Source: Alistipes sp.
GTDB lineage: Bacteria; Bacteroidota; Bacteroidia; Bacteroidales; Rikenellaceae
NCBI GenBank assembly: GCA_017504485.1
Contig: JAFVRC010000040.1
Coordinates: 19,821-83,820 of the forward strand
Length of the DNA: 64,000 nt
Direction: 5' to 3'
Made by a program: the position numbers and the translations under genes. The notes beneath the pieces were generated by a model. The model was not told the origin of the DNA. It ran no database searches and saw only the letters and a program-made list of their open reading frames with translations. This document shows, piece by piece, positions 8,454 through 38,049 of the stretch (position 1 is the stretch's first letter; every line of letters begins with the position of its first letter).

Positions 8454-8457
8454 TTTA

Positions 8458-8465: not shown

Positions 8466-8489
8466 CACCCACAAACGGGGAAACCCGAT

Positions 8490-8564: not shown

Positions 8565-8568
8565 CAAC

Positions 8569-8609
8569 AGCAGAGGCTGACTTATTCGGAAGTCAGCCTC
8601 TGCTATTTT
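8569..8609 (+). terminator. Rho-independent terminator after the CAT tRNA
   Basis: A 15-bp stem (8569-8583 with 8590-8604) with a 6-nt loop, followed by TATTTT, directly behind the tRNA. Confidence 0.88.
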
Positions 8610-8638
8610 CATACAATAGGCAACCTATCGGAGAGATG

Positions 8639-9400
8639 CTATATGCGGTCGGTCAGTTCCAACTTGCGATTTATCGAGGCGGCCGTAGCGAGCACAAGGT
8701 CGAGAATCTCCTGCTCATTGGCAAGGCGGGAAGATGGCAGATAGACACCCACACTGCCGGCGACATGGCCACCTCGCCAGAGAGGCGCAGCAAGGCCGAC
8801 AATACCGTTGCTATTGAAATCGATTTCGTAGCCCTCCTTGCGAATCTTGTTGAGCCGACGACGGAACTCGAGGTCGGGATTATCGCCCTCATATATTGCG
8901 GGCCACTCACTCTCGGCAGGCAGGCCATTGCGAATGATGAACTTCTCGAGGTGGTCGGGGGTATAGTTTGCCAATATCACACGTCCCGTATTGGCCGAAT
9001 AGACCGACTTATCTATATTCGTGCGCACGATAAGTTCACGGTCGGGCGTCGTATGAAAGAGTACGATACGCTTATCGTTCTTGATAATGGAGAGTATGGC
9101 ACTCTCGTTAGTGACGCGCCCCAACGAAGCGACATCCTCGCGTGCAATCTTCGTCAAATCCTCGTTTACAACAGCTGTGCCCGTCAGCTTGTAGAACATA
9201 TAGCCGAACTTATAGCCGCGACGCGGCGCACTCTGCTGCACATATCCGTGTGAGGCGAGGGTCTTAATGATGTTGGCACAGGTACCATGATCCAGTTCCA
9301 ACTCATCGGCAATCTCGCTCAAAGGGTACTCTCGCTGCGGATTTGAGGCCAACAGCTCGATAATACTCATCGCCTTAATAACACTTTGAATAAGCGGCAT
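8639..9400 (-). CDS. IclR-family transcriptional regulator of the sugar-acid operon
   Basis: A protein of 253 residues with the IclR layout. The N-terminal winged helix (residues about 5-65: SVIKAMSIIELLA, YPLSEIADELELDHGTCANIIKTLASHGYV) is followed by an effector-binding domain (about 80-250) containing ANTGRVILANYTPDH and the C-terminal GSVGVYLPSSR strand. IclR proteins such as KdgR commonly respond to sugar acids or keto-deoxy acids. The gene is divergent from the MFS-led operon, and two near-identical palindromic sites occupy the 126-bp gap, one abutting each start codon. This suggests autoregulation and control of the operon. The effector is unknown. Confidence 0.92.
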   Translation of the reverse strand: MPLIQSVIKAMSIIELLASNPQREYPLSEIADELELDHGTCANIIKTLASHGYVQQSAPRRGYKFGYMFYKLTGTAVVNEDLTKIAREDVASLGRVTNESAILSIIKNDKRIVLFHTTPDRELIVRTNIDKSVYSANTGRVILANYTPDHLEKFIIRNGLPAESEWPAIYEGDNPDLEFRRRLNKIRKEGYEIDFNSNGIVGLAAPLWRGGHVAGSVGVYLPSSRLANEQEILDLVLATAASINRKLELTDRI

Positions 9401-9401
9401 A

Positions 9402-9418
9402 ATTTAACATTATAAAAT
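9402..9418. promoter_or_regulatory. Candidate IclR operator, regulator-proximal copy
   Basis: ATTTAACATTATAAAAT is a near-palindrome (one mismatch in 6-5-6). It lies 1 bp upstream of the iclR-type start codon and is a near-copy of the site 100 bp away. Confidence 0.5.
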
Positions 9419-9465
9419 TCGACAACAAAGTTCGGAAAATATTCCATACTTTCAAACATTATCAC

Positions 9466-9473
9466 TACATTTG
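9466..9473 (+). promoter_or_regulatory. -7 promoter element of the sugar-acid operon
   Basis: TACATTTG matches TAnnTTTG and lies 53 bp before the MFS start codon, between the two operator copies. Confidence 0.55.
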
Positions 9474-9501
9474 CAATGTTTTAAGTCAAATAAGTACTCT
9501 T

Positions 9502-9518
9502 ATTTTACATTATAAAAT
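9502..9518. promoter_or_regulatory. Candidate IclR operator, operon-proximal copy
   Basis: ATTTTA-CATTA-TAAAAT is a perfect 6-5-6 inverted repeat 8 bp before the MFS start codon and downstream of the -7 element, so a bound repressor would block elongation. Confidence 0.55.
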
Positions 9519-9526
9519 TAACAGCA

Positions 9527-10783
9527 ATGAAAACTGCAAGAAATGGTTACAAATGGGAGCTGATTTTGATGCTCTGGTTTGCCTTTTTTCTCAATCAAGG
9601 TGATCGTCAGGTCTATGGTGCGATAGTCGAGGATATCCAGACCGCCCTTGGTCTGAGCGGCCTCGAGGCAGGATTGGTAGTGACGGTATTCACCGTGGTT
9701 TACGGCTGTCTCGCTCCGTTTGGCGGATATGTCGGCGACTTTTTGAGCCGCAAATGGATTGTCATCACCTCGCTGATAGTATTCAGTCTCGGCACTCTCT
9801 TCACCGGTTTCGCCGGCGCAATGGGTAGTTTTGCCCTTATATACCTTATTATAATGCGCGGTATTGCGACGGGCGCAGGCGAAGCGTTCTATAATCCGGC
9901 AGCCATCTCGCTCATCACGCAGCACCACGAAAAGACTCGCGGCACGGCCATCTCGTTGCATCAGTCGGCCCTTTATGTGGGCATTATGGCGAGTGCAATT
10001 ATCGCCCCACTCATCTCCAAGACCTTCGGTTGGAACTACGCCTTTATCGGCTTCGGCGTATTCGGCTTGCTGGTAGCCACATATTGCATATTCAGGATGC
10101 AGGATACTCCGCAAATCAAGGAGCAAACCGAGCGTATCCCATTCGGCGAGCTTATCAAGGGTATTTTCTCGAAAAAGACCATTTGGCTGTTGGCTTTTGC
10201 CTTCGGCTGTCAGGTATTTGTAAATATAGGCATAACCACTTGGGCTGCGAAGTTCTTCAACCTGAAGTTCTTCGGTGGTGAGAATCTCCCTATGGCCAGC
10301 TCGATAGCTATGCTCACGAGTTGCGGCTTCGCAATCTTCGGCGTTATGGTCGGCGGTCGCATGTCGGACAAAATGGCCCAGAAGAGCAAATTGGCGCGTA
10401 TGTACACCGAAGCTATCGGTCTGCTGTTCGGCACGCCGTTCCTCCTGATGGTAGGTTGGGCATCGAACATTTGGGTAGCAGGCGTGGCGATGTCGCTGTA
10501 TGGCATCTTCCGCGGTGTGTATGACTCGAATATCTATGCTGCGATGTTTGACGTTATCGATCCGAAGTTACGCGCCTCGTCAGTCGGTATCCTCACCGCC
10601 TTTGCCTTTATAGTCGGCTGCCTCGCACCGATATACCTCGGCGCAGTGCAGGGCGACGGTACAAGCATCGAGAGCTTCGGTTGGGGCATCTCGTCACTCG
10701 GACTCTTCTTCCTCGTAGGAGGTCTGCTGATTGCTTTCGCGGCCAAATTCACATTCCTCAAAGAGCGCTACGAAGAGAAATAA
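9527..10783 (+). CDS. MFS transporter (sugar-acid porter-like)
   Basis: An inner-membrane protein of 418 residues with about 12 hydrophobic segments and no signal peptide. NQGDRQVYGAIVEDIQ near the N-terminus corresponds to the NYxDRxxL signature of the anion:cation symporter branch that includes hexuronate and galactarate carriers. The loop 2-3 motif GGYVGDFLSRKWIVI and the second-half counterpart GGRMSDKMAQKSKLARM are present. As first gene of the operon divergent to the IclR regulator it probably imports the substrate handled by the downstream dehydratase, SDR, lactonase and aldolase. The exact substrate is inferred only at class level. Confidence 0.88.
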   Translation: MKTARNGYKWELILMLWFAFFLNQGDRQVYGAIVEDIQTALGLSGLEAGLVVTVFTVVYGCLAPFGGYVGDFLSRKWIVITSLIVFSLGTLFTGFAGAMGSFALIYLIIMRGIATGAGEAFYNPAAISLITQHHEKTRGTAISLHQSALYVGIMASAIIAPLISKTFGWNYAFIGFGVFGLLVATYCIFRMQDTPQIKEQTERIPFGELIKGIFSKKTIWLLAFAFGCQVFVNIGITTWAAKFFNLKFFGGENLPMASSIAMLTSCGFAIFGVMVGGRMSDKMAQKSKLARMYTEAIGLLFGTPFLLMVGWASNIWVAGVAMSLYGIFRGVYDSNIYAAMFDVIDPKLRASSVGILTAFAFIVGCLAPIYLGAVQGDGTSIESFGWGISSLGLFFLVGGLLIAFAAKFTFLKERYEEK

Positions 10784-10806
10784 TAGCTAAAGAAATACGA
10801 AACATC

Positions 10807-12204
10807 ATGAAACGTTTACTGATACTTCTTTTTGGTGTAGCCGCAAGCCTCTCGCTGTCGGCTCAAGAGTCGTTCGGTCACCTCAAGGCCCGTCACACGT
10901 CGCCATGGTTCCGCGAGAGCGTGAGCTACCAGCTCGTCGTGCGTAACTTCAGCGAGGAGGGTACCTTGAAGGGCGCCGAGAAGGGGCTGAAAAGACTCAA
11001 GGATTTGGGTGTGGGTGTCATCTACCTCATCCCTGTCTGTGAGTCGGATACCGATATGGATCGCAATGGCTGGAGCCCGAAGCAGATTCGTGCCGGCTTC
11101 AACGACCCGCGTAACCCATACCGCATCAGCGACTACCTCCATGTCGATCCCGAGTATGGTACGGATAAGGATTTGAAGGACTTTATCGCCACGGCTCACA
11201 AGCTTGGCATGCGTGTGCTGCTCGACCTCGTGTTTGCTCACTGCGGCCCATCGGCCAAGGTGCTGAAGGAGCATCCGGAGTACTTCCTCTATGACGAGAA
11301 CGGCAAGCTGAGGCTGACGCGCTGGAACTTCCCGATGTTCGACACCAAGAAGCCGGAGACGTGCGACTACTTTTTGGGCATCATGAAGCACTATATGACC
11401 TACTACGGCGCTGACGGCTTCCGTTGCGATGTTTGCGAATATGTACCTATCTCGTTCTGGGAGAGCGCTCGTCGCGAGTTGGAGAAGATTAAGCCAGATA
11501 TGGTAATGATTGCCGAGTCGGATTTGCTCGAAAATACCTGCTACGCCTTCGACGCGAACTATGGCTGGGAGATCTGCACCGATGTAGTCAAGGCATTGGT
11601 TGTGGCAGAGGCTGTAGGTATTCAGAAGAATATAAAGGTGCCGTGGCGAGAGGGCTTTGCTCGCGCTCGCAAGGTGCACGAGGAGATGACCGCCAAGCGT
11701 CCAAAGGGCTCGCTCAACTGGAATATGTACGAGAATCACGACCTGGCGGAGTACTCACAGCACAACCGCATTGAGAAGACTTGCGGCAATGCCGCTTGCG
11801 AGGTGATGCTGGCGCTGACCTTCGCCTTGGACGGTGTGCCATTCATCTTCAATGGTCAGGAGATAGCCTACGACAAGCGTCTTTCGTTCTTCGGCCATAA
11901 GAACAGCTGGATCAACTGGAAGGTTGACGGTGCAACCGAGGCGGCCAAGCATAGAACGGCGAAGATTAAGGAGTGGACGAAGATGCGCAAGGAGCAGAAG
12001 GCTCTCCCTTACGGTGCAACCGAGTGGATTGACAACAGCTACCCGGCCGATATCATCTCGTTCAAGCGCACACTCGAGGGACACGACGACGTGCTCTTCA
12101 TCGGCAATTTCTCGGATGTGTCGGTCGAGTTTACGCTCGCCGACGGCACGAAGTACTCTTTCAAGCCGTGGGAGTACATCTTCAAGCCACTGCCTAATAA
12201 GTAA
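10807..12204 (+). CDS. Secreted GH13 alpha-amylase-family protein, copy 1
   Basis: A protein of 465 residues with a signal peptide (LLILLFGVAASLSLSA, cleavage before Gln20) and a GH13 (beta/alpha)8 barrel. The conserved regions are recognisable: region I DLVFAH (D140, H145), region II GFRCD with nucleophile D208, region III IAES with acid/base E237, and region IV ENHD with D312. All three catalytic carboxylates are therefore present. A short C-terminal beta domain (FIGNFSDVSVEFTLADG) ends the protein. Only 25 bp separate it from a close paralogue. The long-range layout suggests a small oligosaccharide substrate. The ATG at 10807 is chosen for the signal peptide. No SusC/SusD pair accompanies it. 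Confidence 0.9.
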   Translation: MKRLLILLFGVAASLSLSAQESFGHLKARHTSPWFRESVSYQLVVRNFSEEGTLKGAEKGLKRLKDLGVGVIYLIPVCESDTDMDRNGWSPKQIRAGFNDPRNPYRISDYLHVDPEYGTDKDLKDFIATAHKLGMRVLLDLVFAHCGPSAKVLKEHPEYFLYDENGKLRLTRWNFPMFDTKKPETCDYFLGIMKHYMTYYGADGFRCDVCEYVPISFWESARRELEKIKPDMVMIAESDLLENTCYAFDANYGWEICTDVVKALVVAEAVGIQKNIKVPWREGFARARKVHEEMTAKRPKGSLNWNMYENHDLAEYSQHNRIEKTCGNAACEVMLALTFALDGVPFIFNGQEIAYDKRLSFFGHKNSWINWKVDGATEAAKHRTAKIKEWTKMRKEQKALPYGATEWIDNSYPADIISFKRTLEGHDDVLFIGNFSDVSVEFTLADGTKYSFKPWEYIFKPLPNK

Positions 12205-12229
12205 CCCGATTTTTTAACGCAATAAACTG

Positions 12230-13603
12230 ATGAAACGACTATTTGCAACCATCGCATGTTTAGCTTTCGGCCTTGCGGCCATGGCGCAGGAGAACTGCAG
12301 CCACTTCAACGCACGCCACACTCCGGCATGGTTTCGCGAGGGCGTATCCTACCAGATTATGCCTCGCTGCTTCAGTGAGGAGGGTACGCTGAAGGGTGCC
12401 GAGAAGCACCTCGAGCGTCTTGCCGACCTGGGTATATCGGTGGTATATCTGCTTCCGGTTAATGTGGCGGATACAGATATGGATAAGAGCAAGTGGAGCC
12501 CGCGCCAGCTCGCCTCGGGCTTCAACGACCCGCGCAACCCGTACCGTGCGGGCGACTACTTCAGCGTCGATCCCGAGTATGGTACCGACCAGGACCTGAA
12601 GGACTTCGTGAATAAGGCGCACTCGCTCGGCATGAAGGTCTTCCTCGACCTCGTGTTTGCACATTGCGGCCCTGCGGCGGATGTTGTGAAGAACCATCCG
12701 GAGTACTTCCTCTACAAGGAGAACGGCGAGATGGAGCTCACGCGCTGGAACTTCCCGAAGTTTGACATGAACTACATCGGCGCTCGTAGATATTTCAAGA
12801 GCGTCATGAGCTACTACCTGGCCCACTACAATGTGGACGGCTTCCGCTGCGACGTGGCACACCGTATCCCTATCTCGTTCTGGGAGGAGGCGCGTGCCGA
12901 GGTGGAGGCCCTGAAGCCGGACTTGGTGATTGTTGCCGAGTCGAGCCGTCCTTACGATATGCGCTACGCCTTCGATGCCGAGTATAACTGGAGCATTGGC
13001 CGGTATGCCATGCGCAAGATTCTCGACAAAGATCCCGAGTTTGCCGATAAGGGCGGTATGGCCTACGTGCGCAGTCAGCACGGCAAGAATGCAGCGGTAC
13101 GACCAAAGGGTGCGCTGCATTGGAATATGACCGAGAACCACGACTTTGCGACCGACGATTTCGAGAACCGTCAGGAGAAGCGTTGGGGCAACGCTTGCTG
13201 CGAGTTGCAGCTCGCCTTCTCGTTTGCCATCGACGGCGTGCCGTTCCTCTTCAACGGCCAGGAGATTGCCCACGCGAAGCGAGTGTCGCTCTTCGGCCAC
13301 AAGGATTGCTGGATAGACTGGAAGGCGGACGGTGCAACCGAGGTGGCGAAGGATCGTACTGCAAAGATTAAGGCATGGGCCAAGATGCGCAAGGAGCAGA
13401 AGGCCCTCTCGTATGGCGCAACCGAGTGGATCGACAACGACCATCCTGCCGAGGTGCTCTCGTTCAAGCGCACGCTCGAGGGTGCGGCAGACGTGCTCTT
13501 CGTCGGCAACTTCTCGGACAAGGAGCTGAAGGTGAAGCTCGCCAACGGTGCGAAATATACGCTTGCCCCTTGGGCATACGTCTTTGCTCCGCAAAAGAGA
13601 TAA
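12230..13603 (+). CDS. Secreted GH13 alpha-amylase-family protein, copy 2
   Basis: A tandem paralogue of the preceding gene (457 residues), colinear through about residue 260. It has a signal peptide (MKRLFATIACLAFGLAAMA), region I DLVFAH (D140, H145), nucleophile D208 in GFRCDVAHR, acid/base E237 in VAES, and transition-state residue D305 in ENHD. Copy 2 has His211 after the nucleophile where copy 1 has Glu211, and the stretch between regions III and IV is shorter. These differences lie around the active site and suggest different specificities. The C-terminal halves are again very similar (GATEWIDN motif in both). Confidence 0.9.
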   Translation: MKRLFATIACLAFGLAAMAQENCSHFNARHTPAWFREGVSYQIMPRCFSEEGTLKGAEKHLERLADLGISVVYLLPVNVADTDMDKSKWSPRQLASGFNDPRNPYRAGDYFSVDPEYGTDQDLKDFVNKAHSLGMKVFLDLVFAHCGPAADVVKNHPEYFLYKENGEMELTRWNFPKFDMNYIGARRYFKSVMSYYLAHYNVDGFRCDVAHRIPISFWEEARAEVEALKPDLVIVAESSRPYDMRYAFDAEYNWSIGRYAMRKILDKDPEFADKGGMAYVRSQHGKNAAVRPKGALHWNMTENHDFATDDFENRQEKRWGNACCELQLAFSFAIDGVPFLFNGQEIAHAKRVSLFGHKDCWIDWKADGATEVAKDRTAKIKAWAKMRKEQKALSYGATEWIDNDHPAEVLSFKRTLEGAADVLFVGNFSDKELKVKLANGAKYTLAPWAYVFAPQKR

Positions 13604-13645
13604 TACGATATATTTAAATAACAAACCCACTAAAAATATTTAGTT

Positions 13646-14836
13646 ATGAAAATTACTGACATGAGAGTTCGCGTTGTTGCCATTCCGATGAATGCGCAAC
13701 TCCGCCACAACACGGGTGTTCACCCGGGTTACCTTCTGCGAAACATCGTAGAGATTTTCACCGATGAGGGTATTGTCGGTCTCGGCGAGTGCGGCGGTGG
13801 CGATGCCAAGGCCGCTCTGCTGAAGCTCAAGCCAAGAATCATCGGCCTCGATCCATTCGACTTGGAGACCATCAAGATGAAGGTCTTGCGTAGCATCTAC
13901 TACATGTCGAATGCACGCCTTTATGGTGCCATCGAGATTGCCTGTCTCGACATTCAGGGTAAGGTTGCCGGCGTGCCTATGCACCGTCTGCTCGGTGGTG
14001 CTTTGCGCGACCGTATTCCGATGATTGCCTACCTCTTCTGGCGTTACGACCGTCCGGGTGGCGGCCACGACGAGTGTGCCGAGGATATGGCCGACTTCTG
14101 CGTCGAGCTCCACGAGACGCTCGGTGTGAATGCCATGAAGCTCAAGGCCGGCGTAAAAGACCCTATGGAGGAGGTTCGCGTACTGGAGCTCTGCCGCAAA
14201 AAGTTGGGCGACGACTTCGGTTTGCGTATCGACCCTAACGGCGTATGGAGCGTAGCTACCGCCATCAAGGCCGGTAAGCGTATGGAGGAGCTCGAGCCGC
14301 AGTACTTCGAGGATCCATCGTGGGGCTTGGAGGGTATGCGTGCCGTGCGCGAGAAGGTAAATATTCCGCTCGCTACGAATATGTACCCTAACAAGTTCGA
14401 CGACCTCGGCCCTGCAATCCACATGAACTCTATCGACATCATCCTCACCGACCTCCACTATTGGGAGGGCCCTCGCGGCGTGAAGGACTTGGTGGCCGTA
14501 TGCCGCACGTTCAACCTCGGTGTTGCGATGCACTCGGGTGCCGAGTTCGGTATCGAGTTGGCAGCGATGCTCCACACCGCATCGACTATCCCGCAGATGA
14601 CCATGCCGGGCGATGCTCACTACCACTACCTCGAGGACGATATCATCGAGGGTGGCCTGATGAAGTACGAGGATGGTTGCATCAAGGTTCCGGAGGGTCC
14701 GGGCTTGGGCGTATCGCTCGATGAGGACAAGATGAAGTTCTACGAGAAGTACTACGAGAAGCACGGCGACTACTACGCACGCTTCCACCAAGACCCATAT
14801 CGTCCTGAGTGGTATCCAATCGTAGGAGGAATTTAG
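13646..14836 (+). CDS. Enolase-superfamily sugar-acid dehydratase (glucarate dehydratase subgroup)
   Basis: A protein of 396 residues with an N-terminal capping domain and a (beta/alpha)7-beta barrel. Active-site residues can be read directly: KxK base motif K165-L-K167, metal ligands D196 (RIDPNG), E222 (YFEDP) and N245 (ATNMY), and a His-Asp dyad H296 (MHSG) with D269. The Asp-Glu-Asn ligand set is the mark of the glucarate dehydratase subgroup, which removes water from acid sugars to give 2-keto-3-deoxy products. It sits 1 bp before an SDR gene and in one operon with a lactonase and an RraA-like aldolase. The actual acid (aldarate or aldonate) is not determined. Confidence 0.88.
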   Translation: MKITDMRVRVVAIPMNAQLRHNTGVHPGYLLRNIVEIFTDEGIVGLGECGGGDAKAALLKLKPRIIGLDPFDLETIKMKVLRSIYYMSNARLYGAIEIACLDIQGKVAGVPMHRLLGGALRDRIPMIAYLFWRYDRPGGGHDECAEDMADFCVELHETLGVNAMKLKAGVKDPMEEVRVLELCRKKLGDDFGLRIDPNGVWSVATAIKAGKRMEELEPQYFEDPSWGLEGMRAVREKVNIPLATNMYPNKFDDLGPAIHMNSIDIILTDLHYWEGPRGVKDLVAVCRTFNLGVAMHSGAEFGIELAAMLHTASTIPQMTMPGDAHYHYLEDDIIEGGLMKYEDGCIKVPEGPGLGVSLDEDKMKFYEKYYEKHGDYYARFHQDPYRPEWYPIVGGI

Positions 14837-14837
14837 T

Positions 14838-15605
14838 ATGTTCGACCTTAAAGGCAAAACAGCACTTGTAACTGGTAGCGGTCAGGGCATTGGCAGAGCC
14901 ATTGCCCTGCTGCTTGCCGAGCAAGGTGCGCGAGTAGTTGTCAATTGGCGGTCGCACGACGAGGTTGCACAGCAAACCTTCGATGCGTTGGACGCTATGG
15001 GCGCCAACTACCTGCGCTGGAAGTACGACTTGGCTTCGGACAGCATCAAGGAGGATTGGGAGGCCTTCGCTCGCGAGAACAACATCGCGGCCGACATCCT
15101 CGTCTTGAACGCCTCGATGCAGATTCGCAACGATTGGGAGAATATCACTTTCGAGGAGTTCGACCAGCAGATGCACGTCAATCTCCGTGCCTCATTGGCT
15201 CTTATTCAGGCCTGTGTGCCGGCTATGCGCGAGCGTAAGTGGGGACGTATCGTCACCATCGGCAGCGTGCAGCAGTACCGCCCGAATACAGCCATGGCTA
15301 TCTATGCCACAACGAAGTCTGCGCAGCGCAACCTCGTGCTGACGCTCTCGGTGGAGCTTGCCGGCGACGGCATCACCATCAACAACGTCGCTCCGGGTGC
15401 TATCGAGACGGTGCGTAATGAAGCTGTTCTGGCGGATGCCGCTTTCAGAACAAAAATCGAAAATTCGATTCCGGTCGGCTTCGTAGGTCAGCCGCAGGAC
15501 ATCGCTCCTGCCGTGTTGCTGCTCTGCTCGGAGGAGGGCCGCTATATTACGGGTACAGATATTTTGGTTGATGGCGGTATGGCCATCCCTTTCACAAAGA
15601 AGTAA
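14838..15605 (+). CDS. SDR-family oxidoreductase (candidate sugar dehydrogenase)
   Basis: A classical short-chain dehydrogenase of 255 residues. The cofactor motif GSGQGIG (residues 13-19), NAS near 91-93, catalytic Ser143, Tyr156 and Lys160 (YATTK) and the C-terminal ITGTDILVDGG are all present. Overall it resembles FabG-like 3-oxoacyl-ACP reductases. However, there is no acyl-carrier gene nearby, and it lies between a sugar-acid dehydratase and an RraA-like protein, so a role on a sugar, sugar acid or keto-deoxy acid is more likely. NAD or NADP preference cannot be fixed: NWRSHDE after beta-2 would allow NADP. Confidence 0.88.
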   Translation: MFDLKGKTALVTGSGQGIGRAIALLLAEQGARVVVNWRSHDEVAQQTFDALDAMGANYLRWKYDLASDSIKEDWEAFARENNIAADILVLNASMQIRNDWENITFEEFDQQMHVNLRASLALIQACVPAMRERKWGRIVTIGSVQQYRPNTAMAIYATTKSAQRNLVLTLSVELAGDGITINNVAPGAIETVRNEAVLADAAFRTKIENSIPVGFVGQPQDIAPAVLLLCSEEGRYITGTDILVDGGMAIPFTKK

Positions 15606-15626
15606 ATTAATCTTAAATTCAGAAAA

Positions 15627-16370
15627 ATGAGTGTAGATCAATACAAGAAAGAGGTCGGCATGATGAACCTCGACAAGCTTATCGAGGCTCGCGAGGGCAT
15701 TTGCGATAAGAAATTCCCAATTTCGGACAAGGAGCTTTTGGCGCGTTTCGAGCAGCTCTATCTTGGTGCTGTGAACGACGTTATGCGCGAGTTCTGCCTG
15801 CTCAACCAGGCTCTGCCTAACCGCATCAAGCCGTTGCGCGAGTATCAGACCGTTGCCGGCTTTGCCTTCACGGTGAAGAGTGCGCCTAACGTGAAGATTA
15901 CGGGCGAGATGGAGTTCCGCACGCAGATGCTCGACGAGCTCGGCGAGGATCACTTCGTCATTTGGGACACGAGCCGCGATCAGGAGGCAACACTCTGGGG
16001 CGGTGTGATGACCTCGACTGCCAAGGGCAAGAAGGTTAAGGCCGCCTGCATCGACGGAGGTATCCGCGATACGCACCAGATTCTCGAGGCCGACTTCCCA
16101 ATCTTCTACGAGTACCGTATCTCGAATGGTTCGCTCGGTCGCTGCCTCATTACCCATTATCAGACTCCAATCAAGATTGGCGACGTAACCATCAAGCCGG
16201 GTGATGTTATCCTTGGCGATATCGATGGCGTGTTGGTTGTGCCACGCGAGATTGCCTATGATGTGCTCGTGCGTGCCGAGGAGATCAAGGAGAACGAGAA
16301 GAAGATTTTCTCGTGGGTACATGAGGGCCAGACCATTCAGGAGATTAAGGACAAGGGTGGATATTTCTAG
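15627..16370 (+). CDS. RraA-like aldolase/decarboxylase family protein
   Basis: A protein of 247 residues with the RraA-like fold shared by the RNase E inhibitor RraA and the class II HMG/CHA aldolases (4-hydroxy-4-methyl-2-oxoglutarate aldolase). The family core is visible: GGVMTSTAKGKKVKAACIDG followed by GIRDTHQI, holding the conserved Arg-Asp pair that binds substrate and divalent metal, and IKPGDVILGDIDGVLVVP near the C-terminus. Such enzymes cleave or decarboxylate 2-oxo acids to pyruvate. In this operon a keto-deoxy sugar acid produced by the dehydratase would be the natural substrate. That assignment is inference. Confidence 0.8.
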   Translation: MSVDQYKKEVGMMNLDKLIEAREGICDKKFPISDKELLARFEQLYLGAVNDVMREFCLLNQALPNRIKPLREYQTVAGFAFTVKSAPNVKITGEMEFRTQMLDELGEDHFVIWDTSRDQEATLWGGVMTSTAKGKKVKAACIDGGIRDTHQILEADFPIFYEYRISNGSLGRCLITHYQTPIKIGDVTIKPGDVILGDIDGVLVVPREIAYDVLVRAEEIKENEKKIFSWVHEGQTIQEIKDKGGYF

Positions 16371-16373
16371 GCT

Positions 16374-17390
16374 ATGTTGTCCGCACTAAAACTAATGTCA
16401 ATGGCGATTTTGGTCGGAACAAATACGCCCTATTGGGGGCATACATTCCTTGCGGAGGGCAATGATAAAATCTATGCCCTCCGTAGCCTTTCCGGCTCCT
16501 CATCACTCTGCGTGTTCGACGGTACGCAGTTGAAGGGGCAGGGAGGGCTCGTCGAGCTGTCGTCGCTACAAGCTATGATGGCCGAGGGAACAACCCCCGG
16601 CGAGCATTCGTGCCACATAACACTGCTCGATAGGGAGGCCGTGGTTGCCGACTATACGAGTGGAACGCTCACGCTCTACCCTCTTGCGGCCGATGGCTCG
16701 CTCGAGGGCGAGCCTCGCATCGTGCACTTCTCCGGTTCGGGGCCGCACCCGAAGCGTCAGCTGTCGCCGCACATCCACTCCTCTTCGCTCTCGCCCGACA
16801 AGGCAACCCTTATCGTTGCCGACCTCGGCACCGACCGCCTCTACCGCTTCGACGTGAAGCAGGGGCGTGCCGTAATGCCATACACACCTGTCGTGTTGCC
16901 CGAGGGTTGCGGCCCTCGACACACAGCATTCAGCCCCGACGGGCGCTTTCTCTATGTAGTCACGGAGCTGAGCGACGAAGTGTTGGTATATCGTACAGAC
17001 GACTACTCGCTACTTGAGCGTCACTCGCTCAATGGTGAAAATCCGCAGGGCGGAGCACATATCGCCCTAAGCCGCGATGGTCGCTACCTCTATGCCACGC
17101 TGCGCGTGAGTAGCACGGCCAATGCTGCAGCGTGCAAGCTCGCCGATGGCGTTGCCGTCTTCGAGCGCAATGCCGACGGCTTGTTGCGCCGTGTCGGTTA
17201 TCGTACTACCGGAGGTCATCCGCGTCACTTTGCACTCTCGATTGACGGAGGTTCGCTTATCGTAGCGTGCCGCGACAGCAACAGTGTGGAGCTCTACCCA
17301 ATCGACCCGACAAGCGGAGCTCTCGGCGATTGCATCGACAAAGTCGAGGTGTCGAATCCGGTATTCGTATTACCACTATCTGGCAGATAA
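16374..17390 (+). CDS. Seven-bladed beta-propeller lactonase
   Basis: A protein of 338 residues related to YbhE-type 6-phosphogluconolactonase. Repeated blades show the family pattern: VADYTSGTLTLYPLAADGSL, then SPHIHSSSLSPDKATLIVAD and LGTDRLYRFDV, then GPRHTAFSPDGRFLYVVTEL, GGAHIALSRDGRYLYATLR, and GGHPRHFALSIDGGSLIVA. No convincing signal peptide is seen, so it probably acts in the cytoplasm. The start is uncertain: ATG 16374 is 3 bp after the previous stop, but 16395 or 16401 would also fit. In this context it would open an aldonolactone made by the SDR. The domain also occurs in proteins of other function. Confidence 0.85.
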   Translation: MLSALKLMSMAILVGTNTPYWGHTFLAEGNDKIYALRSLSGSSSLCVFDGTQLKGQGGLVELSSLQAMMAEGTTPGEHSCHITLLDREAVVADYTSGTLTLYPLAADGSLEGEPRIVHFSGSGPHPKRQLSPHIHSSSLSPDKATLIVADLGTDRLYRFDVKQGRAVMPYTPVVLPEGCGPRHTAFSPDGRFLYVVTELSDEVLVYRTDDYSLLERHSLNGENPQGGAHIALSRDGRYLYATLRVSSTANAAACKLADGVAVFERNADGLLRRVGYRTTGGHPRHFALSIDGGSLIVACRDSNSVELYPIDPTSGALGDCIDKVEVSNPVFVLPLSGR

Positions 17391-17410
17391 CCAACAAAAA
17401 CCCAGCCTTT

Positions 17411-18271
17411 ATGAGAAAAGCTATTATCATATTGGTCGCTCTGGCAGCAATTTGCTCGGCACAGACAGCCTCCGCTTGGGGTGGTTGGACACACAAGTTT
17501 ATCGCACACACCGCCGATAAATATCTCGAGCCGGAAGTGAAAGCGAAGGTCGATAAGTATCTCGGCTCTCCGATGATAGACCATTGCACCTGGATGGATC
17601 AGATTCGCAAGCCTATTCGCAAGAAAAGTCATCCCGACCACGAGAGATTGCAGCCGTACCGTCCGTCGCTTCTCTGGCACGGAATGGTCTTGGACGAGAA
17701 GTTCCGCCCAAGTGACAAGCGTGCTGCGAAGGGCCGAGGTGCCTTGTATCCAAATCTTGAGAAGAGCATCGAGAACTTGCGTAACTATCGCAATATGACA
17801 GACTCGGCCGTAGCCGTAAATCTGAAGTATGTGATACACATGATGCAGGATATGCACTGCCCGTCGCACGTCTTCTACACCGAGTTCCCGGACTGCTTCG
17901 GCGGAGAGCCTTCGGGCCCTGCCGGTCGAATGTTTATGCGCGTCTATTACGAGGGCAAGAAGACCACCTACCACGCCGTGTGGGACGGTCTATCCATTCG
18001 TGTTCTCTATCCGGAGTGCGGCAAGGATTTCGAGCTTTTCCGCCAGAAGATGGATAAGTACACTCCGAAGCAGCGTGCCAAGTTATGCCGCGGAACACTC
18101 CTTGATTGGGCTACCGACACGGGCAAGCGTTGCCGCCCAATCTACAACAAAGTGGAGCCGCAAGACCATATAGACCGCGATTTTCTCTTGGGCTATCGCA
18201 AGATTTCCGAGGGACAGGCGATGCGCTCGGCGTACCGTCTTGCCCATCTGCTGAACGAGATTTTCAGGTAG
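17411..18271 (+). CDS. Secreted S1/P1-family nuclease, copy 1
   Basis: A zinc-dependent single-strand nuclease/3'-nucleotidase of 286 residues. The signal peptide (AIIILVALAAICSAQTASA) is cleaved before Trp, so the mature N-terminus is W-G-G-W-T-H. Trp1 and His6 are known zinc ligands of this family. The other ligands are present: Asp in WMDQIRK, His in LLWHGM, HMMQDMHCPSH (H-x3-D-x5-H) and YHAVWD (H-x3-D). It lies 20 bp after the lactonase and shares its operon, an unexpected place for a nuclease. It is more diverged from the two tandem copies at 46-48 kb than these are from each other. Confidence 0.9.
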   Translation: MRKAIIILVALAAICSAQTASAWGGWTHKFIAHTADKYLEPEVKAKVDKYLGSPMIDHCTWMDQIRKPIRKKSHPDHERLQPYRPSLLWHGMVLDEKFRPSDKRAAKGRGALYPNLEKSIENLRNYRNMTDSAVAVNLKYVIHMMQDMHCPSHVFYTEFPDCFGGEPSGPAGRMFMRVYYEGKKTTYHAVWDGLSIRVLYPECGKDFELFRQKMDKYTPKQRAKLCRGTLLDWATDTGKRCRPIYNKVEPQDHIDRDFLLGYRKISEGQAMRSAYRLAHLLNEIFR

Positions 18272-18460: not shown

Positions 18461-19483
18461 ATGAAAAAGATTGTAACATTCGGAGAGATTATGCTCCGCC
18501 TCAGCACCCCGGGCAACAGCCGCTTCGTGCAGTCGGATAGCTTCGACGTAGTATATGGCGGTGGCGAGGCCAACGTCGCAGTGAGCCTTGCCTCGTATGG
18601 CCACGACGCATACTTCGTAACCAAGCTGCCGAGCCACGAGATTGGCCAATCGGCTCTCAATGCTCTGCGCCGCTATGGCGTGCATACCGACTATATCGCC
18701 CGTGGCGGCGAGCGTGTCGGCATCTACTACCTCGAGACGGGTGCCTCGATGCGCCCATCGAAGGTTATCTACGACCGTGCGCACTCCTCGATTTCGGAGG
18801 CCGAGCCTACCGACTTCGACTTCGACAAAATAATGGAGGGTGCCGACTGGTTCCACTGGTCGGGCATCACGCCGGCAATCTCGGACAAGGCTGCCGAACT
18901 CACGCGCCTCGCCTGCGAGGCAGCAAAGCGTCACGGCGTAAAGGTGTCGGTCGATTTGAACTTCCGCAAGAAGCTGTGGACGAAGGAGAAGGCGCAGTCG
19001 GTTATGCGTCCGCTGATGCAGTATGTCGATGTATGTATCGGCAACGAGGAGGATGCGGAGCTCTGCCTCGGTTTCAAGCCCGATGCCGATGTTGAGGGTG
19101 GCAGAACCGATGCCGAGGGCTACAAATCAATCTTTGCGGCTATGGCCAAGGAGTTTGGTTTCGAGTATGTCATTTCGACGCTGCGCGAGTCTTTCTCGGC
19201 TTCGCACAACGGCTGGAAGGCGATGATTTACGACGGCAAGGAGTTCTACGAGTCGCGCCGCTACGACATCAACCCTATCGTCGATCGCGTGGGTGGAGGC
19301 GATGCCTTCTCGGGCGGTGTTATCCACGGCCTGCTCACCAAGGCTACGCAGGGTGAGGCTCTGGAGTTTGCGGTGGCTGCTTCGGCCTTGAAGCACACCA
19401 TTCCGGGCGACTTCAATATGGTTTCGGCCGACGAGGTCGAGGCCTTGTGCGGTGGCGATGCAAGCGGCCGCGTACAGCGTTAA
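18461..19483 (+). CDS. kdgK: 2-keto-3-deoxygluconate kinase
   Basis: A PfkB-family sugar kinase of 340 residues that phosphorylates 2-keto-3-deoxy-D-gluconate to KDPG. Seen here are the N-terminal GEIMLRLSTPG, the substrate-binding GGGEANVAVSLA, SVDLNFRKKLW typical of KdgK, and the catalytic/anion-hole motif DRVGGGDAFSGG near residue 275 with the base Asp. It is first gene of the hexuronate operon and is directly followed by the KDPG aldolase gene, the next enzyme in the pathway. The start at ATG 18461 fits the family. Confidence 0.95.
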   Translation: MKKIVTFGEIMLRLSTPGNSRFVQSDSFDVVYGGGEANVAVSLASYGHDAYFVTKLPSHEIGQSALNALRRYGVHTDYIARGGERVGIYYLETGASMRPSKVIYDRAHSSISEAEPTDFDFDKIMEGADWFHWSGITPAISDKAAELTRLACEAAKRHGVKVSVDLNFRKKLWTKEKAQSVMRPLMQYVDVCIGNEEDAELCLGFKPDADVEGGRTDAEGYKSIFAAMAKEFGFEYVISTLRESFSASHNGWKAMIYDGKEFYESRRYDINPIVDRVGGGDAFSGGVIHGLLTKATQGEALEFAVAASALKHTIPGDFNMVSADEVEALCGGDASGRVQR

Positions 19484-19508: not shown

Positions 19509-20174
19509 ATGGCACGATTTGACAAGATTGCAGTTCTAAACAAGATTCAGACGACGGGCATCGTTCCCGTATTCTATAACGGCGATGCGGAGATTGCCAA
19601 GCAGGTCGTGAAGGCCTGCTACGAGGGCGGCATTCGCGCCTTCGAGTTCACTAATCGCGGCGACTTCGCGCACGAGGTATTTGCCGAGGTGGTTAAGTAT
19701 GCCGCCACGGAGTGCCCCGAGATGGCCGTAGGCGTAGGCTCGGTGGTAGATGCACCGACCGCCTCGCTCTACATACAGCTGGGCGCGTGCTTCGTCGTAG
19801 GCCCGCTCTTCAACCCCGATGTTGCGAAGGTGTGCAACCGCCGCCTTGTGCCCTACACGCCGGGCTGTGGCTCGATTACCGAGGTAGGCATGGCACAGGA
19901 GGCCGGCTGCGACCTATGCAAAGTATTCCCGGGCGATGTCTTGGGCCCGAAGTTCATCAAAGGTTTGATGGCCCCTATGCCGTGGAGCAAGATTATGGTT
20001 ACAGGAGGTGTGGAGCCTACGACCGAAAATCTCTCGTCGTGGTTCAAGGCCGGAGCCTTTGCCGTAGGTATGGGCAGCTGCCTCTTCCCTAAGCAGTTGG
20101 TAGCCTCGAAAGATTGGGAGGCCATCAGCCGCATCTGCGCCGAGTCGATTGACGTAGCTGCAAAGTTGAAATAA
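19509..20174 (+). CDS. eda: KDPG / 4-hydroxy-2-oxoglutarate aldolase
   Basis: A class I aldolase of 221 residues that splits KDPG into pyruvate and glyceraldehyde 3-phosphate. The Schiff-base lysine is K138 in CKVFPGD and the catalytic glutamate is E46 in FEFTNRG. The phosphate-binding loop [12 protein letters not shown] and GMGSCLFPK complete the site. It is one of the longer Bacteroidetes Eda types. It lies 25 bp after kdgK and 18 bp before the transporter gene, so substrate phosphorylation and cleavage are co-expressed. Confidence 0.94.
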
Positions 20175-20192: not shown

Positions 20193-21626
20193 ATGAAGGA
20201 CAAGATGTCAAACTACCGCTGGGCAATATGCGCCATGCTCTTCTTCGCCACGACCATCAACTATATGGATCGTCAGGTGCTGTCGCTCACATGGAAGGAT
20301 TTTATCGCCCCGGAGTTCAACTGGACCGATTCGGACTACGGTACGATTACCGGCTTCTTCTCAATCTTCTATGCCATCGCCTGCCTCTTCGCGGGTAAGT
20401 TCGTGGACTGGATGGGAACAAAGAAGGGTTTCCTTTGGGCTATCGGCATCTGGTCGCTGGGTGCTTGTATGCACGCAGGCTGCGGGTGGGCAACAATAGA
20501 GCTCTTGGGCTACGAATCGTTGGAGGCTCTCAAAGCGGTAGAGGCGGGCTCGAAGGCCGCAATGGTCATAGCGTCACTCAGCGTATGGCTCTTCTTGATT
20601 TGCCGCGCAATCCTCGCTCTTGGTGAGGCCGGCAACTTCCCGGCCGCCATCAAGGTCACAGCCGAGTATTTCCCGAAGAAAGACCGCGCTCTGGCGACAT
20701 CATTGTTCAACGCAGGTGCCTCGGTAGGAGCTTTGGCTGCGCCACTGACCGTACCTATCTTGGCACAAACTCTTGGTTGGGAGATGGCCTTCATCATAAT
20801 CGGAGTTCTTGGCTTTGTCTGGATGTTCTTCTGGGTGTATATGTACGAGAAGCCGGAGAACTCAAAGCACGTGAATAGTGCCGAGTTGAGCTACATTCTC
20901 CAGGACGATAAGGAGGCTTCGACCGAGATGAAAACTACCGATGAGAATAAGACGATTCCGCTGATTAAGTGCTTCGGCTACAAGCAAACGTGGTCATTCA
21001 TCGCCGGCAAGTTCTTCACCGATGGCGTTTGGTGGTTCTACCTCTTCTGGGCTCCGGCATATTTCTCGGAGTGTGGCTACGGCATGGATACGATACAGGG
21101 CAAGATGCTTGTATTCGTTCTCTATCTGATTGTCACCGTCGTTTCGATTGGTGGCGGCTACCTGCCGAAGTTGTTCGTCGAGAAGATGGGTATGGAGCCA
21201 TACTCGGGACGTATGCGTGCGATGTTAATCTTCGCCTTCTTCCCTCTCTTTGCCCTCTTTGCCCAGCCATTACAGGGCATCTCGGTTTGGTTCCCAGCCG
21301 TGATTATCGGTATCGCAGGCGCAGGACATCAGGCTTGGTCGGCCAACCTTTTCTCGACCATTGGCGATATGTTCCCTAAATCTACCATCGCCACCGTCAC
21401 CGGAATCGGTGCCATGCTCGGCGGTTGCAGTTCATTCCTCATCAATAAGGGTGCAGGTATGCTCTTCACTTATGCCGAAGCACAGGGTTCGGCCTTTACG
21501 TTTGCCGGTTTCGAGGGCAAGCCTGCGGGATATATGATTGTATTCTCGTTCTGCGCGGTGGCCTATCTGGTAGGATGGATTATAATGAAGTTACTCGTGC
21601 CAAAATACAAGCGAATTGAGTTATAA
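20193..21626 (+). CDS. MFS hexuronate transporter (ExuT-like)
   Basis: An inner-membrane carrier of 477 residues with about 12 membrane segments, of the anion:cation symporter family. The N-terminal NYMDRQVLSLTWKDF is the hallmark of ExuT/UxuT-like hexuronate porters, followed by GKFVDWMGTKKGFLWAIGIW (loop 2-3). EAGNFPAAIKVTAEYFPKKD, typical of the family, is also present. A second cytosolic insert lies near residues 235-255. Placed inside the uxu/kdg operon, it most likely imports glucuronate and/or galacturonate by proton symport. Confidence 0.92.
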   Translation: MKDKMSNYRWAICAMLFFATTINYMDRQVLSLTWKDFIAPEFNWTDSDYGTITGFFSIFYAIACLFAGKFVDWMGTKKGFLWAIGIWSLGACMHAGCGWATIELLGYESLEALKAVEAGSKAAMVIASLSVWLFLICRAILALGEAGNFPAAIKVTAEYFPKKDRALATSLFNAGASVGALAAPLTVPILAQTLGWEMAFIIIGVLGFVWMFFWVYMYEKPENSKHVNSAELSYILQDDKEASTEMKTTDENKTIPLIKCFGYKQTWSFIAGKFFTDGVWWFYLFWAPAYFSECGYGMDTIQGKMLVFVLYLIVTVVSIGGGYLPKLFVEKMGMEPYSGRMRAMLIFAFFPLFALFAQPLQGISVWFPAVIIGIAGAGHQAWSANLFSTIGDMFPKSTIATVTGIGAMLGGCSSFLINKGAGMLFTYAEAQGSAFTFAGFEGKPAGYMIVFSFCAVAYLVGWIIMKLLVPKYKRIEL

Positions 21627-21632: not shown

Positions 21633-22445
21633 ATGAATATGTTCTGTGTGAAGGATAAGGTTGTCGTAATCACTGGCGGTTACGGCGTATTGGGTGCCTC
21701 GATGGCTCGCTGCCTGGCCGAGCAGGGTGCGCACGTCGCAATCATTGGCCGCAAGGCTGAGCGCGGTGAGACTCTGGCGGCTGAACTCTCGGCGCTCGGC
21801 GCCGAGGCAATCTTCTGCAAGGCCGATGTGCTCGACAAGGAGGCTCTCACTGCAGCTCGCGAGACTATCGTGGCCAAGTGGAGAGCTATTGACGTGTTGA
21901 TAAATGCTGCGGGTGGCAATATGCCTGGTGCAACGATTATGCCCGACCAGAACTTTTTGGACATCGATTTCGCGGCCTTTGGCGGAGTCATAAACCTCAA
22001 CCTGATGGGCACGGTTATCCCGACCGTCATCTTCGGCGAGCAGATGGCCGCGCAGAAGAGTGGCTCGATAATCAACATCTCGTCAATGACGGCACAGCGC
22101 GTCGTGACGCGCGTCGTGGGCTACTCGGCCTCGAAGTCGGCAATCGACAACTTCACGCGCTGGATGGCTGTCGAGATGGCCAAGAAGGTGGGCGAGGGTG
22201 TGCGTGTCAATGCCATTGCACCGGGTTTCTTCCTCACCGAGCAGAACCGCACGTTGATGACCAATCCAGACGGCTCGCTCAGCGACCGTGCGAAGGATGT
22301 GGTGCGCGTAACGCCGTTTGGCCGTCTCGGCAGAGCCGAGGAGTTGCACGGAGCGGTGCTCTTCTTCGCAAGCGAGGCTTCGCACTTTGTGACGGGCGCG
22401 GTGCTGCCTGTCGATGGTGGTTTCAGCATATTCAGCGGAGTATAG
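21633..22445 (+). CDS. uxuB: SDR-type D-mannonate oxidoreductase (fructuronate reductase)
   Basis: A protein of 270 residues: a short-chain dehydrogenase with cofactor motif TGGYGVLG (14-21), NAAGG (91-95), catalytic Ser151, Tyr164 and Lys168 (YSASK), and the long insert DFAAFGGVINLNLMGTVIP found in UxuB enzymes of the Bacillus YjmF type. It reduces D-fructuronate to D-mannonate with NADH. It is unrelated in sequence to the long-chain UxuB of E. coli. It starts 6 bp after the transporter and stops 3 bp before uxuA, the next pathway gene, which strongly supports the assignment. Confidence 0.9.
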   Translation: MNMFCVKDKVVVITGGYGVLGASMARCLAEQGAHVAIIGRKAERGETLAAELSALGAEAIFCKADVLDKEALTAARETIVAKWRAIDVLINAAGGNMPGATIMPDQNFLDIDFAAFGGVINLNLMGTVIPTVIFGEQMAAQKSGSIINISSMTAQRVVTRVVGYSASKSAIDNFTRWMAVEMAKKVGEGVRVNAIAPGFFLTEQNRTLMTNPDGSLSDRAKDVVRVTPFGRLGRAEELHGAVLFFASEASHFVTGAVLPVDGGFSIFSGV

Positions 22446-22448: not shown

Positions 22449-23633
22449 ATGGCAGAGGTATATAGATGCGAGCAGTGCTGGCGTTGGTACGGTCCGAATG
22501 ACCCCGTATCGCTGTCGGACATCCGTCAGGCGGGTGCTACGGGCATAGTCAATGCCCTGCATCACATTCCGAATGGCGAAATATGGAGTGTCGAGGAGAT
22601 TCTCGCTCGCAAGCAGATTATCGAGGAGGCGGGCCTACGCTGGTCGGTAGTCGAGAGTGTACCCGTACACGAACACATAAAGACGCGCACAGGCGACTTC
22701 GAGCAATATATCGAGAACTACAAGCAGAGCATCCGCAACCTTGCTTCGTGCGGCATAAAGACCATAACCTACAACTTTATGCCCGTGCTCGATTGGACAC
22801 GCACGGACCTTGCCTACGAGATGCCCGATGGCAGCCGCGCTCTGCGCTTCGAACGTGCCGCATTTGTCGCTTTCGACCTCTTCTTGCTGCGCCGCCCGAA
22901 TGCCGAGGCAGAATATACGGCAGAGGAGCGGGAGGTTGCACGCCAACGCTTCGAGCGAATGAACGATGAGGAGCGCAATCGTCTGGTGCGCAATATGATT
23001 GCCGGACTTCCGGGCTCCGAGGAGAGCTTCACACTGGAGCAGTTTCAGGCGGAGCTCGACCGCTATCGCAACATCACGCCCGAGCGTCTGCGCCAAAACC
23101 TGATACTCTTTCTTCAGGAGGTATGTCCTGTGGCCGATGAGGCAGGTGCCGTGATGGTTATCCACCCCGACGATCCGCCGATGTCGATTCTCGGGCTACC
23201 ACGCATAATGAGTTGCGCTGAAGATTTCGCACGACTGATAGAAGCCGTGCCTAACCCAAGCAACGGACTATGCCTCTGTACGGGCTCGCTCGGCGTGAGC
23301 AGTGCGAATGATTGCGCGGCGATGATGCAACGCTTTGGCGACCGCGTGGGCTTCGTACATCTGCGCAGCACGGAGCGCGATGCGGATGGCAACTTCCACG
23401 AAGCGAACCACCTCGAGGGCGATGTGGATATGTACGGCGTAATGAAGGCTCTCTTGGAGTTGCAGCAGCGGCGCGGTGTGTCGCTACCGATGCGCCCCGA
23501 CCACGGACACCAGATGGTCGATGACCTGCGCAAAAAGACCAATCCCGGATACAGCTGCATAGGCCGTCTGCGCGGCCTCGCGGAGCTGCGCGGTCTGGAG
23601 ATGGGTATCGCCAAATCACTCTTTGAAAACTAA
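22449..23633 (+). CDS. uxuA: D-mannonate dehydratase
   Basis: UxuA dehydrates D-mannonate to 2-keto-3-deoxy-D-gluconate. At 394 residues it has typical length. Landmarks are the N-terminal [50 protein letters not shown], the metal-site stretch [17 protein letters not shown] (His and Asp), [18 protein letters not shown] and MRPDHGHQM near the C-terminus. The product feeds KdgK at the start of the operon. It lies between uxuB and uxaC with gaps of 3 and 18 bp. Confidence 0.96.
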
Positions 23634-37705: not shown

Positions 37706-37706
37706 A

Positions 37707-38042: not shown

Positions 38043-38049
38043 ACCTCTG

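Follow-up and report, generated by a model that had tools for sequence, protein, structure and literature searches.

A recurrent RraA-dehydratase module in a predicted IclR-controlled hexuronate operon of Alistipes sp.

Introduction

RraA-family proteins carry diverse names in models and in the Protein Data Bank (PDB), including RNase regulator, demethylmenaquinone methyltransferase and aromatic-acid aldolase, and more than one reaction is known in the family (PMC5065237, PMC8563752). A member from Flavobacterium sp. UMI-01, FlDet, is a 2-keto-3-deoxy-D-glucarate dehydratase/decarboxylase (PMC8563752). An oxidative hexuronate route comprising a uronate dehydrogenase, the lactonases UxuL and UxuF and a glucarate dehydratase has also been described (PMC6353982, PMC12076931). 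In this study, a 64,000-nucleotide stretch of contig JAFVRC010000040.1 (positions 19,821 to 83,820; hereafter the window) from an Alistipes sp. genome (GenBank assembly GCA_017504485.1; 1.92 Mb, 82% complete; hereafter G000) was analyzed, in which a gene for an RraA-family protein lies within an operon-like run of sugar-acid genes.

An earlier note, made from the sequence alone, had described eight genes lying close together on one strand and had proposed a non-phosphorylative sugar-acid operon. All eight genes (a transporter, two GH13 proteins, a dehydratase, a short-chain dehydrogenase/reductase (SDR), RraA, a lactonase and an S1/P1 nuclease) were confirmed as open frames at the same coordinates on the forward strand, with Pfam matches and spacings of 1-42 bp from mfs1 to the nuclease gene. 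The boundary drawn at 18,271 was too narrow; after a 189-bp gap, the run continues on the same strand with six sugar-acid genes and a phosphatase gene up to 25,727, and a divergent iclR gene (8639-9400) had been overlooked.

We tentatively interpret this run, at somewhat less than even probability, as an IclR-controlled, two-arm hexuronate operon whose dehydratase would supply the substrate of RraA, likely an aldolase. In the first arm, which consists of MFS1, SDR1, a PF10282 lactonase and a GudD-like dehydratase (hereafter Dht), SDR1 would oxidize an acidic sugar at C1, the lactonase would open the lactone, and Dht would convert the acid into a 2-keto-3-deoxy (di)acid. This acid would in turn be the substrate of RraA, most likely a metal-dependent class II aldolase, which would yield pyruvate and a three-carbon aldehyde. 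The second arm would be the classical glucuronate isomerase route through UxaC, UxuB, UxuA, 2-keto-3-deoxygluconate (KDG) kinase and 2-keto-3-deoxy-6-phosphogluconate (KDPG) aldolase. What was observed are the families of the genes, their operon-like packing, the repeated pairing of RraA with dehydratases, front-end exchange, conserved active-site residues and a shared motif; the reactions, the substrate and aldol cleavage in place of a FlDet-type dehydration/decarboxylation are predictions.

RraA orthologues share their loci with sugar-acid dehydratases

GTDB genome contigs were scanned with an alignment of three orthologues, using two peptide patterns that reach close relatives only. The scan yielded 68 loci with an RraA orthologue of 74-97% identity, distributed in Bacteroidota, Verrucomicrobiota and, once, KSB1. 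Neighboring genes were labelled by BLAST and Pfam, taking the best tblastn hit that covered 45% or more of the query at E ≤ 1e-10; of 93 unlabelled neighbors chosen for a further scan, 74 were scanned. A sugar-acid dehydratase was found together with the RraA orthologue in 61 of the 68 loci and, because the two share a locus this often, their association is beyond chance. The dehydratase was GudD-like in 20 loci, another enolase-superfamily protein in 4 and a divergent UxuA-like protein in 36, and the last two types were both present in L054. The seven loci lacking a dehydratase were L047, L051, L052, L055, L061, L069 and L088, four of which are pieces of 5-12 kb. SDR1 was labelled in 35 of the 68 loci, a label that may include unrelated SDRs, and a lactonase (SMP-30 or PF10282) was present in 30, an mfs1 homologue in 28, UxaC-like and UxuB-like genes in 26 and 25, respectively, and an SSF transporter in 26.

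These results bear out the earlier expectation that the gene set is conserved across genomes, as the SDR, lactonase, dehydratase and RraA genes recur, and the neighborhood check proposed at that time has thereby been carried out. The note's placement of RraA after the dehydratase is, from this recurrence, the most likely order. Of the other genes it listed, the nuclease and, beyond close kin, the GH13 proteins fall outside the conserved core. The S1/P1 nuclease gene was found in none of the 68 loci and GH13 in 3, and both were dropped as core parts; kdgK, seen in 3 loci and as one contig-end fragment, was likewise dropped from the wider core. GH13 proteins A and B (Pfam Alpha-amylase scores of 110.5 and 104.0 bits) are 59% identical, and a third paralogue elsewhere in the genome is 74% identical to GH13 B.

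The distribution of the module is patchy. A close RraA was detected in 2 of 120 relatives (G000 and G058 of the same genus, 96% identity), in 2 of 393 genomes of the order (G000 and G432, 77%) and in 2 of 395 genomes of the phylum (G000 and G541, 79%); in the phylum sample, a close Dht (at least 77%) was present in 2 genomes, the same two that carry a close RraA. Compared with the window, the G058 module (L036:377-4117) retains 97% identity in Dht and 96% in RraA, but only 78% in the SDR and 57% in the lactonase, and this unequal divergence suggests gene-wise replacement. In G058, the module is followed at the contig end by a 34-residue start of kdgK with a broken frame.

Seven regions with a distant RraA (approximately 30-34% identity) were also read. 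An enolase-superfamily dehydratase and an SDR were present in L037, L038 and L040, two of which also contained an SMP-30 lactonase; UxuA-like genes and an SDR were present in L042 and L043, one of which also contained UxaC; and L039 and L041 contained an SDR alone. Relatives of RraA were not found on viral contigs.

Several other neighbors were observed beside RraA modules. LutABC-like L-lactate oxidation genes lie at L055:5531-8213 and L057:936-3642 and 7969-10833, and an FAD/Fe-S D-lactate-dehydrogenase-like gene occurs in five loci (the lactate-type set lists L055, L057, L082, L095, L096 and L101). L065:1864-4311 encodes a LarA-like racemase and a glycerate kinase between an RraA/UxuA-like pair and kdgK-eda. 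Secreted-looking proteins also recur (L104:14243-15688, L051:454-2508); their representatives had no Pfam match at E ≤ 1e-5, and their profiles weakly matched GH39/xylosidase-like and GH5 mannanase structures.

The front end is exchanged around a constant RraA

The loci on the RraA tree carry two types of front end. Type A (33 tree rows, including the window) combines an SDR with a lactonase and/or a dehydratase, and type B (25 tree rows) consists of UxaC-like, UxuB-like and UxuA-like genes. Along the RraA tree, 7 switches of front-end type were counted, compared with a mean of approximately 19 after shuffling, and supported sister pairs with opposite front ends are present, such as L049/L053 and L100/L106. 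Given these switches between sisters, RraA is the constant component and the front end varies. On the UxuA-like tree, 3 changes were counted against a shuffled mean of 7.3; thus, the UxuA-like family likewise serves both front ends. L054 has pieces of both front ends around a single RraA, and the gene order dehydratase-SDR-GH2-MFS-SMP30-RraA is found with a GudD-like dehydratase in L070, L071, L072, L074 and L105 and with a UxuA-like one in L099. Among 46 such genomes, 34, the window's genome included, encode a UxuA with 49% or greater identity to that of the window and 12 have none at that level, indicating that the variant set sits atop an ordinary UxuA in most genomes, though not all.

Both the module and its RraA step are well supported. 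RraA most likely follows the dehydratase and, in the simplest interpretation, uses what the dehydratase produces.

RraA retains the Arg-Asp pair of a related aldolase

G000 encodes one RraA-family protein. It matched PDB entry 5ir2 chain A with 433.6 bits (phmmer, E=2e-129, 222 residues) and the 4-hydroxy-4-methyl-2-oxoglutarate/4-carboxy-4-hydroxy-2-oxoadipate (HMG/CHA) aldolase 3NOJ with 46 bits, and it scored below the cut-offs of both NCBIfam HMG/CHA aldolase models (ligK_PcmE, 67.9 vs 304.5 bits; PRK09262, 78.7 vs 179 bits). Entry 5ir2 was deposited as "Cellulase", a name that looks wrong for an RraA-family protein. The R147-D148 pair is invariant in 74 of 74 close loci, a count that includes six duplicates or copies of the window, and 29 of the 30 distant RraA loci also carry Arg-Asp at this place. 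In HMG/CHA aldolase, this pair stabilizes the enolate and binds the metal (PMC5065237), and the activity of RraA as a pyruvate-forming aldolase is plausible on the basis of these residues.

Two features of the protein and its relatives weigh against aldol cleavage. First, position 126, one residue past the pyruvate-pocket Gly, is Gly in all 74 close loci, whereas 3NOJ has Asp there; the equivalent Asp is also rare in distant relatives (3 of 27 readable sequences). This Gly126 would suit an RraA that catalyzes another reaction of the keto-deoxy acid, or of an adjacent intermediate, such as beta-elimination or decarboxylation, and several reactions are known in the family (PMC5065237, PMC8563752); as the Arg-Asp pair is retained, we consider this explanation improbable. 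Second, FlDet, the nearest functional precedent that we found in Bacteroidota and the sole RraA-family protein for which we found an assay with a keto-deoxy sugar acid, is a dehydratase/decarboxylase and not an aldolase (PMC8563752). RraA could accordingly be a FlDet-type 2-keto-3-deoxy-hexarate dehydratase/decarboxylase producing alpha-ketoglutaric semialdehyde, which would make the module an oxidative hexuronate route to 2-oxoglutarate. The reported 19-residue N-terminus and the 237-residue length of FlDet (LC519890) differ from the window protein, as compared by eye on those data alone (PMC8563752). We regard this option as unlikely.

Dht belongs to the glucarate dehydratase subgroup

The assignment of Dht to the glucarate dehydratase subgroup, made previously, is upheld by its best NCBIfam model, glucarate dehydratase TIGR03247, although the score of 141 bits lies far below the equivalog cut-off of 828.7. 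Dht residues H26, Y129, K165, K167, D196 and N198 correspond to GudD H32, Y150, K205, K207, D235 and N237, and E222, N245, D269, H296, S297 and R379 correspond to GudD E260, N289, D313, H339, S340 and R422. Dht thus retains the main active-site residues of GudD, including the lysine pair, the Asp-His pair and H32, Y150 and R422, which bind the distal carboxylate. The conservation of these residues favors a hexarate, and a plausible hexarate product also speaks for a FlDet-type step.

A number of observations weigh against the preferred reading of Dht and RraA. The 12 GudD residues compared were chosen among columns already seen to be invariant, and GudX, a related protein, also has all 12; thus, glucarate as the Dht substrate is not proven by them. 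Six additional positions of the N-terminal loop (20-25) were mapped; G24 alone is retained among them, and H21 takes the place of GudD N27. Of the three dehydratase types that replace one another, two are aldonate-dehydratase-like, which fits poorly with a diacid product: the UxuA-like protein scored 200.2 bits with the mannonate dehydratase subfamily model, exceeding its cut-off of 191, and the galactonate-dehydratase-like protein scored 195.5 bits (cut-off 311). In G541, Dht and RraA are encoded 27.6 kb apart. Furthermore, 12 sampled genomes have a Dht of 42-47% identity with no close RraA, and beside it an SDR in 8 of the 12 and an SMP-30 lactonase in 7; in 5 of the 12, the 16 kb around Dht also lacked a distant RraA. 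The wider dehydratase group therefore functions without this RraA.

Substrate and downstream metabolism

The setting of the RraA gene points to uronates, as UxaC, the UxuB-type oxidoreductase and UxuA are encoded within the same run, and the UxaC, UxuA, UxuB-type and KDPG aldolase models of the canonical glucuronate isomerase pathway all scored above their cut-offs. A hexuronate is thus the most likely substrate. The label "non-phosphorylative" did not survive: the run encodes a KDPG/KHG aldolase, scoring 367 bits against a cut-off of 275, and a PfkB protein resembling KDG kinase, which matched the KDG kinase model NF041332 with 259.9 bits (cut-off 440) and the kinase half of NF041633 with 538.4 bits (cut-off 700), below both cut-offs. 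Together with the isomerase genes, these leave the label unproven.

The same two genes, directly downstream, could instead finish a semi-phosphorylative Entner-Doudoroff pathway for a neutral sugar, in which glucose released by GH13 enzymes would be converted by SDR1 and the lactonase to gluconate, which Dht would dehydrate to KDG, with RraA as a bypass or side enzyme. GH13 genes lie in the operon, and the third GH13 gene follows a one-mismatch copy of the motif described below. The best NCBIfam model of SDR1 is "glucose 1-dehydrogenase", but its score (185.5 bits) is under the cut-off of 215; the search of SDR1 against the PDB at E ≤ 1e-38 gave no match, a threshold too strict to inform. The aldonate-like character of two of the three dehydratase types would also agree with such a pathway. 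As GH13 is confined to 3 of 68 loci and the constant gene, RraA, would be left without a role, this pathway has, in our judgment, little probability.

For the preferred hexuronate reading, the downstream genes were informative to a limited extent. Of 8 genomes tested for PF00171 aldehyde dehydrogenase, the partner that a FlDet-type step would use, 2 lacked it and 4, G000 among them, had a single one, and E. coli GabD, used as a tblastn query, found no match in the 68 loci; both results speak against that step, although several of the genomes are incomplete. Of the other E. coli queries, GarL and GarR also had no match in the 68 loci and GarK had one, in L065, which weighs against the preferred reading. 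Glycerate kinase was detected in 16 of 23 genomes, G000 among them, and lies beside RraA in L065, in favor of an aldolase; its absence from 7 genomes, including the 100% complete G541, counts against aldol cleavage. The 8 and 23 genomes were hand-picked, several being incomplete, and neither pattern is decisive between the two fates.

A polysaccharide source was also considered. In line with a hexuronate, GH10-like genes occur in many RraA loci, and 4 of 68 contain a divergent GH115-like cluster, one member of which was checked with Pfam. As this cluster was the only such gene group seen in the loci, a direct connection to xylan through GH67 or GH115 was dropped. Esterase-type neighbors were few and of acetylesterase/feruloyl-esterase kinds (SASA in 3 and BD-FAE in 2 of the 74 neighbors scanned). 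GH67 was present in 14 and GH115 in 20 of 46 genomes, a set made up of 44 found by way of their RraA loci together with G000 and G058; the last two have neither family. In this unsystematic mapping, placement of GH67 and canonical GH115 near RraA was not established, a point against the preferred reading. (4-O-methyl)glucuronate from xylan is plausibly the substrate. A bolder version, in which the RraA subfamily would be a new, dedicated class of 2-keto-3-deoxy sugar-acid aldolases and the module, with its two exchangeable front ends, an undescribed route for 4-O-methyl-D-glucuronate from glucuronoxylan, strikes us as quite a long shot. There, the methoxyl group would occupy the leaving-group position of a UxuA/GudD-type dehydration and be lost as methanol.

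A shared motif probably marks an IclR regulon

The predicted operator is a 15-bp near-palindrome, TTTTAYAWTRTAAAA, present as two copies 100 bp apart in the iclR-mfs1 gap, one of them with one mismatch. The rest of the 64-kb window contains no further site at ≤1 mismatch, and the expected count in the window was 0.0 in ten shuffles within 100-base blocks, the consensus having been composed after inspection of these same intergenic regions. Across the whole genome, 8 sites were found at ≤1 mismatch against 4 for a reversed control, a modest excess. Two of the 8 belong to the operon, and two precede a GH10-like gene, one with a single mismatch approximately 79 bp upstream and a perfect one approximately 527 bp upstream. 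A one-mismatch site lies approximately 84 bp upstream of the third GH13 paralogue. The list also includes C13:559, C12:25834, which is inside called open reading frames, and a perfect site at C7:38137, approximately 200 bp past a GH28-like gene and close to the contig end. The GH10-like family matches solved xylanases and adjoins RraA in other genomes. The motif upstream of the GH10-like and third GH13 genes ties these enzymes to the module in this species.

In other genomes, iclR was labelled in 11 loci, and the motif lies just upstream in 7 (L044, L045, L048, L049, L050, L069 and L089), with pairs 94-100 bp apart in L044, L048, L049 and L069. It persists beside iclR in L048 and L049 though the next gene is a different dehydratase, and in L069, where the neighbor is an unlabelled open reading frame followed by a GH10-like gene. 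In L056, the motif is found only at a greater distance from iclR, and in L058, L085 and L109 it was not found at the ≤1-mismatch threshold. Any operator site was present in 13 of the 68 loci. In distant genomes, one-mismatch sites are located 14 bp upstream of RraA (L089:9973) and directly before a UxaC-like gene (L095 and L096:7725). Taken together, the 15-bp motif is probably the IclR operator, and a regulon marked by the shared motif is probable; the predicted operator would offer a direct route to the remaining pathway genes.

Gene run at the locus

The features of the run are listed in Table 1. Elsewhere in the window, 28491-30605 encodes a 704-residue protein that contains DUF6259 and matched no NCBIfam model at E ≤ 1e-10, and 35909-40841 (reverse strand) encodes a cluster of CCG/Fe-S and FAD proteins, which we liken to a heterodisulfide-reductase-type complex.

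Table 1. Features of the gene run and its upstream region, in window coordinates.
Feature	Position	Strand	Match or remark
IclR-family regulator, KdgR-like, divergent from operon	8639..9400	-	PF01614/PF09339; KdgR model 65.3 bits, below cut-off 275
Predicted operator copy 1	9403..9417		One mismatch to TTTTAYAWTRTAAAA; 2 bp from iclR start
Predicted operator copy 2	9503..9517		No mismatch to TTTTAYAWTRTAAAA; 9 bp upstream of mfs1 ATG
MFS transporter MFS1	9527..10783	+	PF07690 (MFS_1), 158.7 bits
Secreted-looking GH13 protein A	10807..12204	+	PF00128; lineage-level part, outside wider core
Secreted-looking GH13 protein B	12230..13603	+	PF00128
Dht, enolase-superfamily dehydratase, glucarate dehydratase subgroup	13646..14836	+	MR_MLE_C, 180.3 bits
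SDR1, classical SDR, probable C1 sugar or uronate dehydrogenase	14838..15605	+	PF13561 (adh_short_C2), 166.0 bits
RraA-family protein, constant core of module	15627..16370	+	PF03737 RraA-like, 100.8 bits, above cut-off 24.5
Seven-bladed beta-propeller lactonase	16374..17390	+	PF10282, 225.8 bits
S1/P1 nuclease, probable bystander	17411..18271	+	PF02265, 79.4 bits
PfkB kinase, probable KDG kinase	18461..19483	+	PF00294, family-level match
KDPG/KHG aldolase	19509..20174	+	NF005499, 367.2 bits, above cut-off 275
Second MFS transporter, sugar-acid type	20193..21626	+	TIGR00893, 168 bits, below cut-off 395
UxuB-type D-mannonate oxidoreductase (SDR)	21633..22445	+	NF006132, 359.7 bits, above cut-off 281
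UxuA mannonate dehydratase	22449..23633	+	TIGR00695, 588.2 bits, above cut-off 199.55
UxaC glucuronate isomerase	23652..25061	+	NF002794, 655.5 bits, above cut-off 387
HAD phosphatase, phosphoglycolate-phosphatase-like, closes run	25068..25727	+	152.5 bits, below cut-off 225

Comparison with known systems

A subfamily that keeps 74-97% identity across three phyla, beside three swapping dehydratase types, would give the RraA family a catabolic meaning and would re-label the solved structure 5ir2. If the substrate were 4-O-methylglucuronate, it would become possible to test what rumen and soil bacteria do with a major side chain of hemicellulose. In the literature searched, no paper was found that joins RraA with dehydratase and enolase superfamily, or with aldolase and sugar acid, and an RraA end step behind an SDR, lactonase and dehydratase front end was not found. 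The earlier statement that no described pathway has this gene set is therefore partly wrong: it agrees with the literature searched for the RraA end step but not for the oxidative hexuronate front end, which is described (PMC6353982, PMC12076931).

Like the window RraA, FlDet is an RraA-family protein of Bacteroidota in uronate catabolism, and it acts on a 2-keto-3-deoxy sugar diacid, as proposed here (PMC8563752). In contrast, FlDet serves the catabolism of alginate through 4-deoxy-L-erythro-5-hexoseulose uronate (DEHU) and has an aldehyde dehydrogenase and an alginate lyase as neighbors; a sugar-acid dehydratase or lactonase partner was not seen in the available text (PMC8563752). HMG/CHA aldolase (3NOJ) shares the fold family and the Arg-Asp pair with the window RraA, whereas it serves aromatic catabolism and has Asp where Gly is found here (PMC5065237).

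The genes of the canonical Ashwell pathway (UxaC-UxuB-UxuA-KdgK-Eda) are present in the same run, but that pathway does without SDR1, the lactonase, the GudD-like dehydratase and RraA; type B loci differ from it in having divergent UxaC, UxuB and UxuA copies beside RraA. With the oxidative hexuronate pathway, the module, as read from its genes alone, would share C1 oxidation of the uronate, lactone opening and glucarate-type dehydration. That pathway ends with a known aldolase or 5-keto-4-deoxyglucarate dehydratase/decarboxylase, whose place an RraA-family protein seems to take here. The module thus varies on sugar-acid routes already known, and its constant member, an RraA-family protein, is the candidate for the last step.

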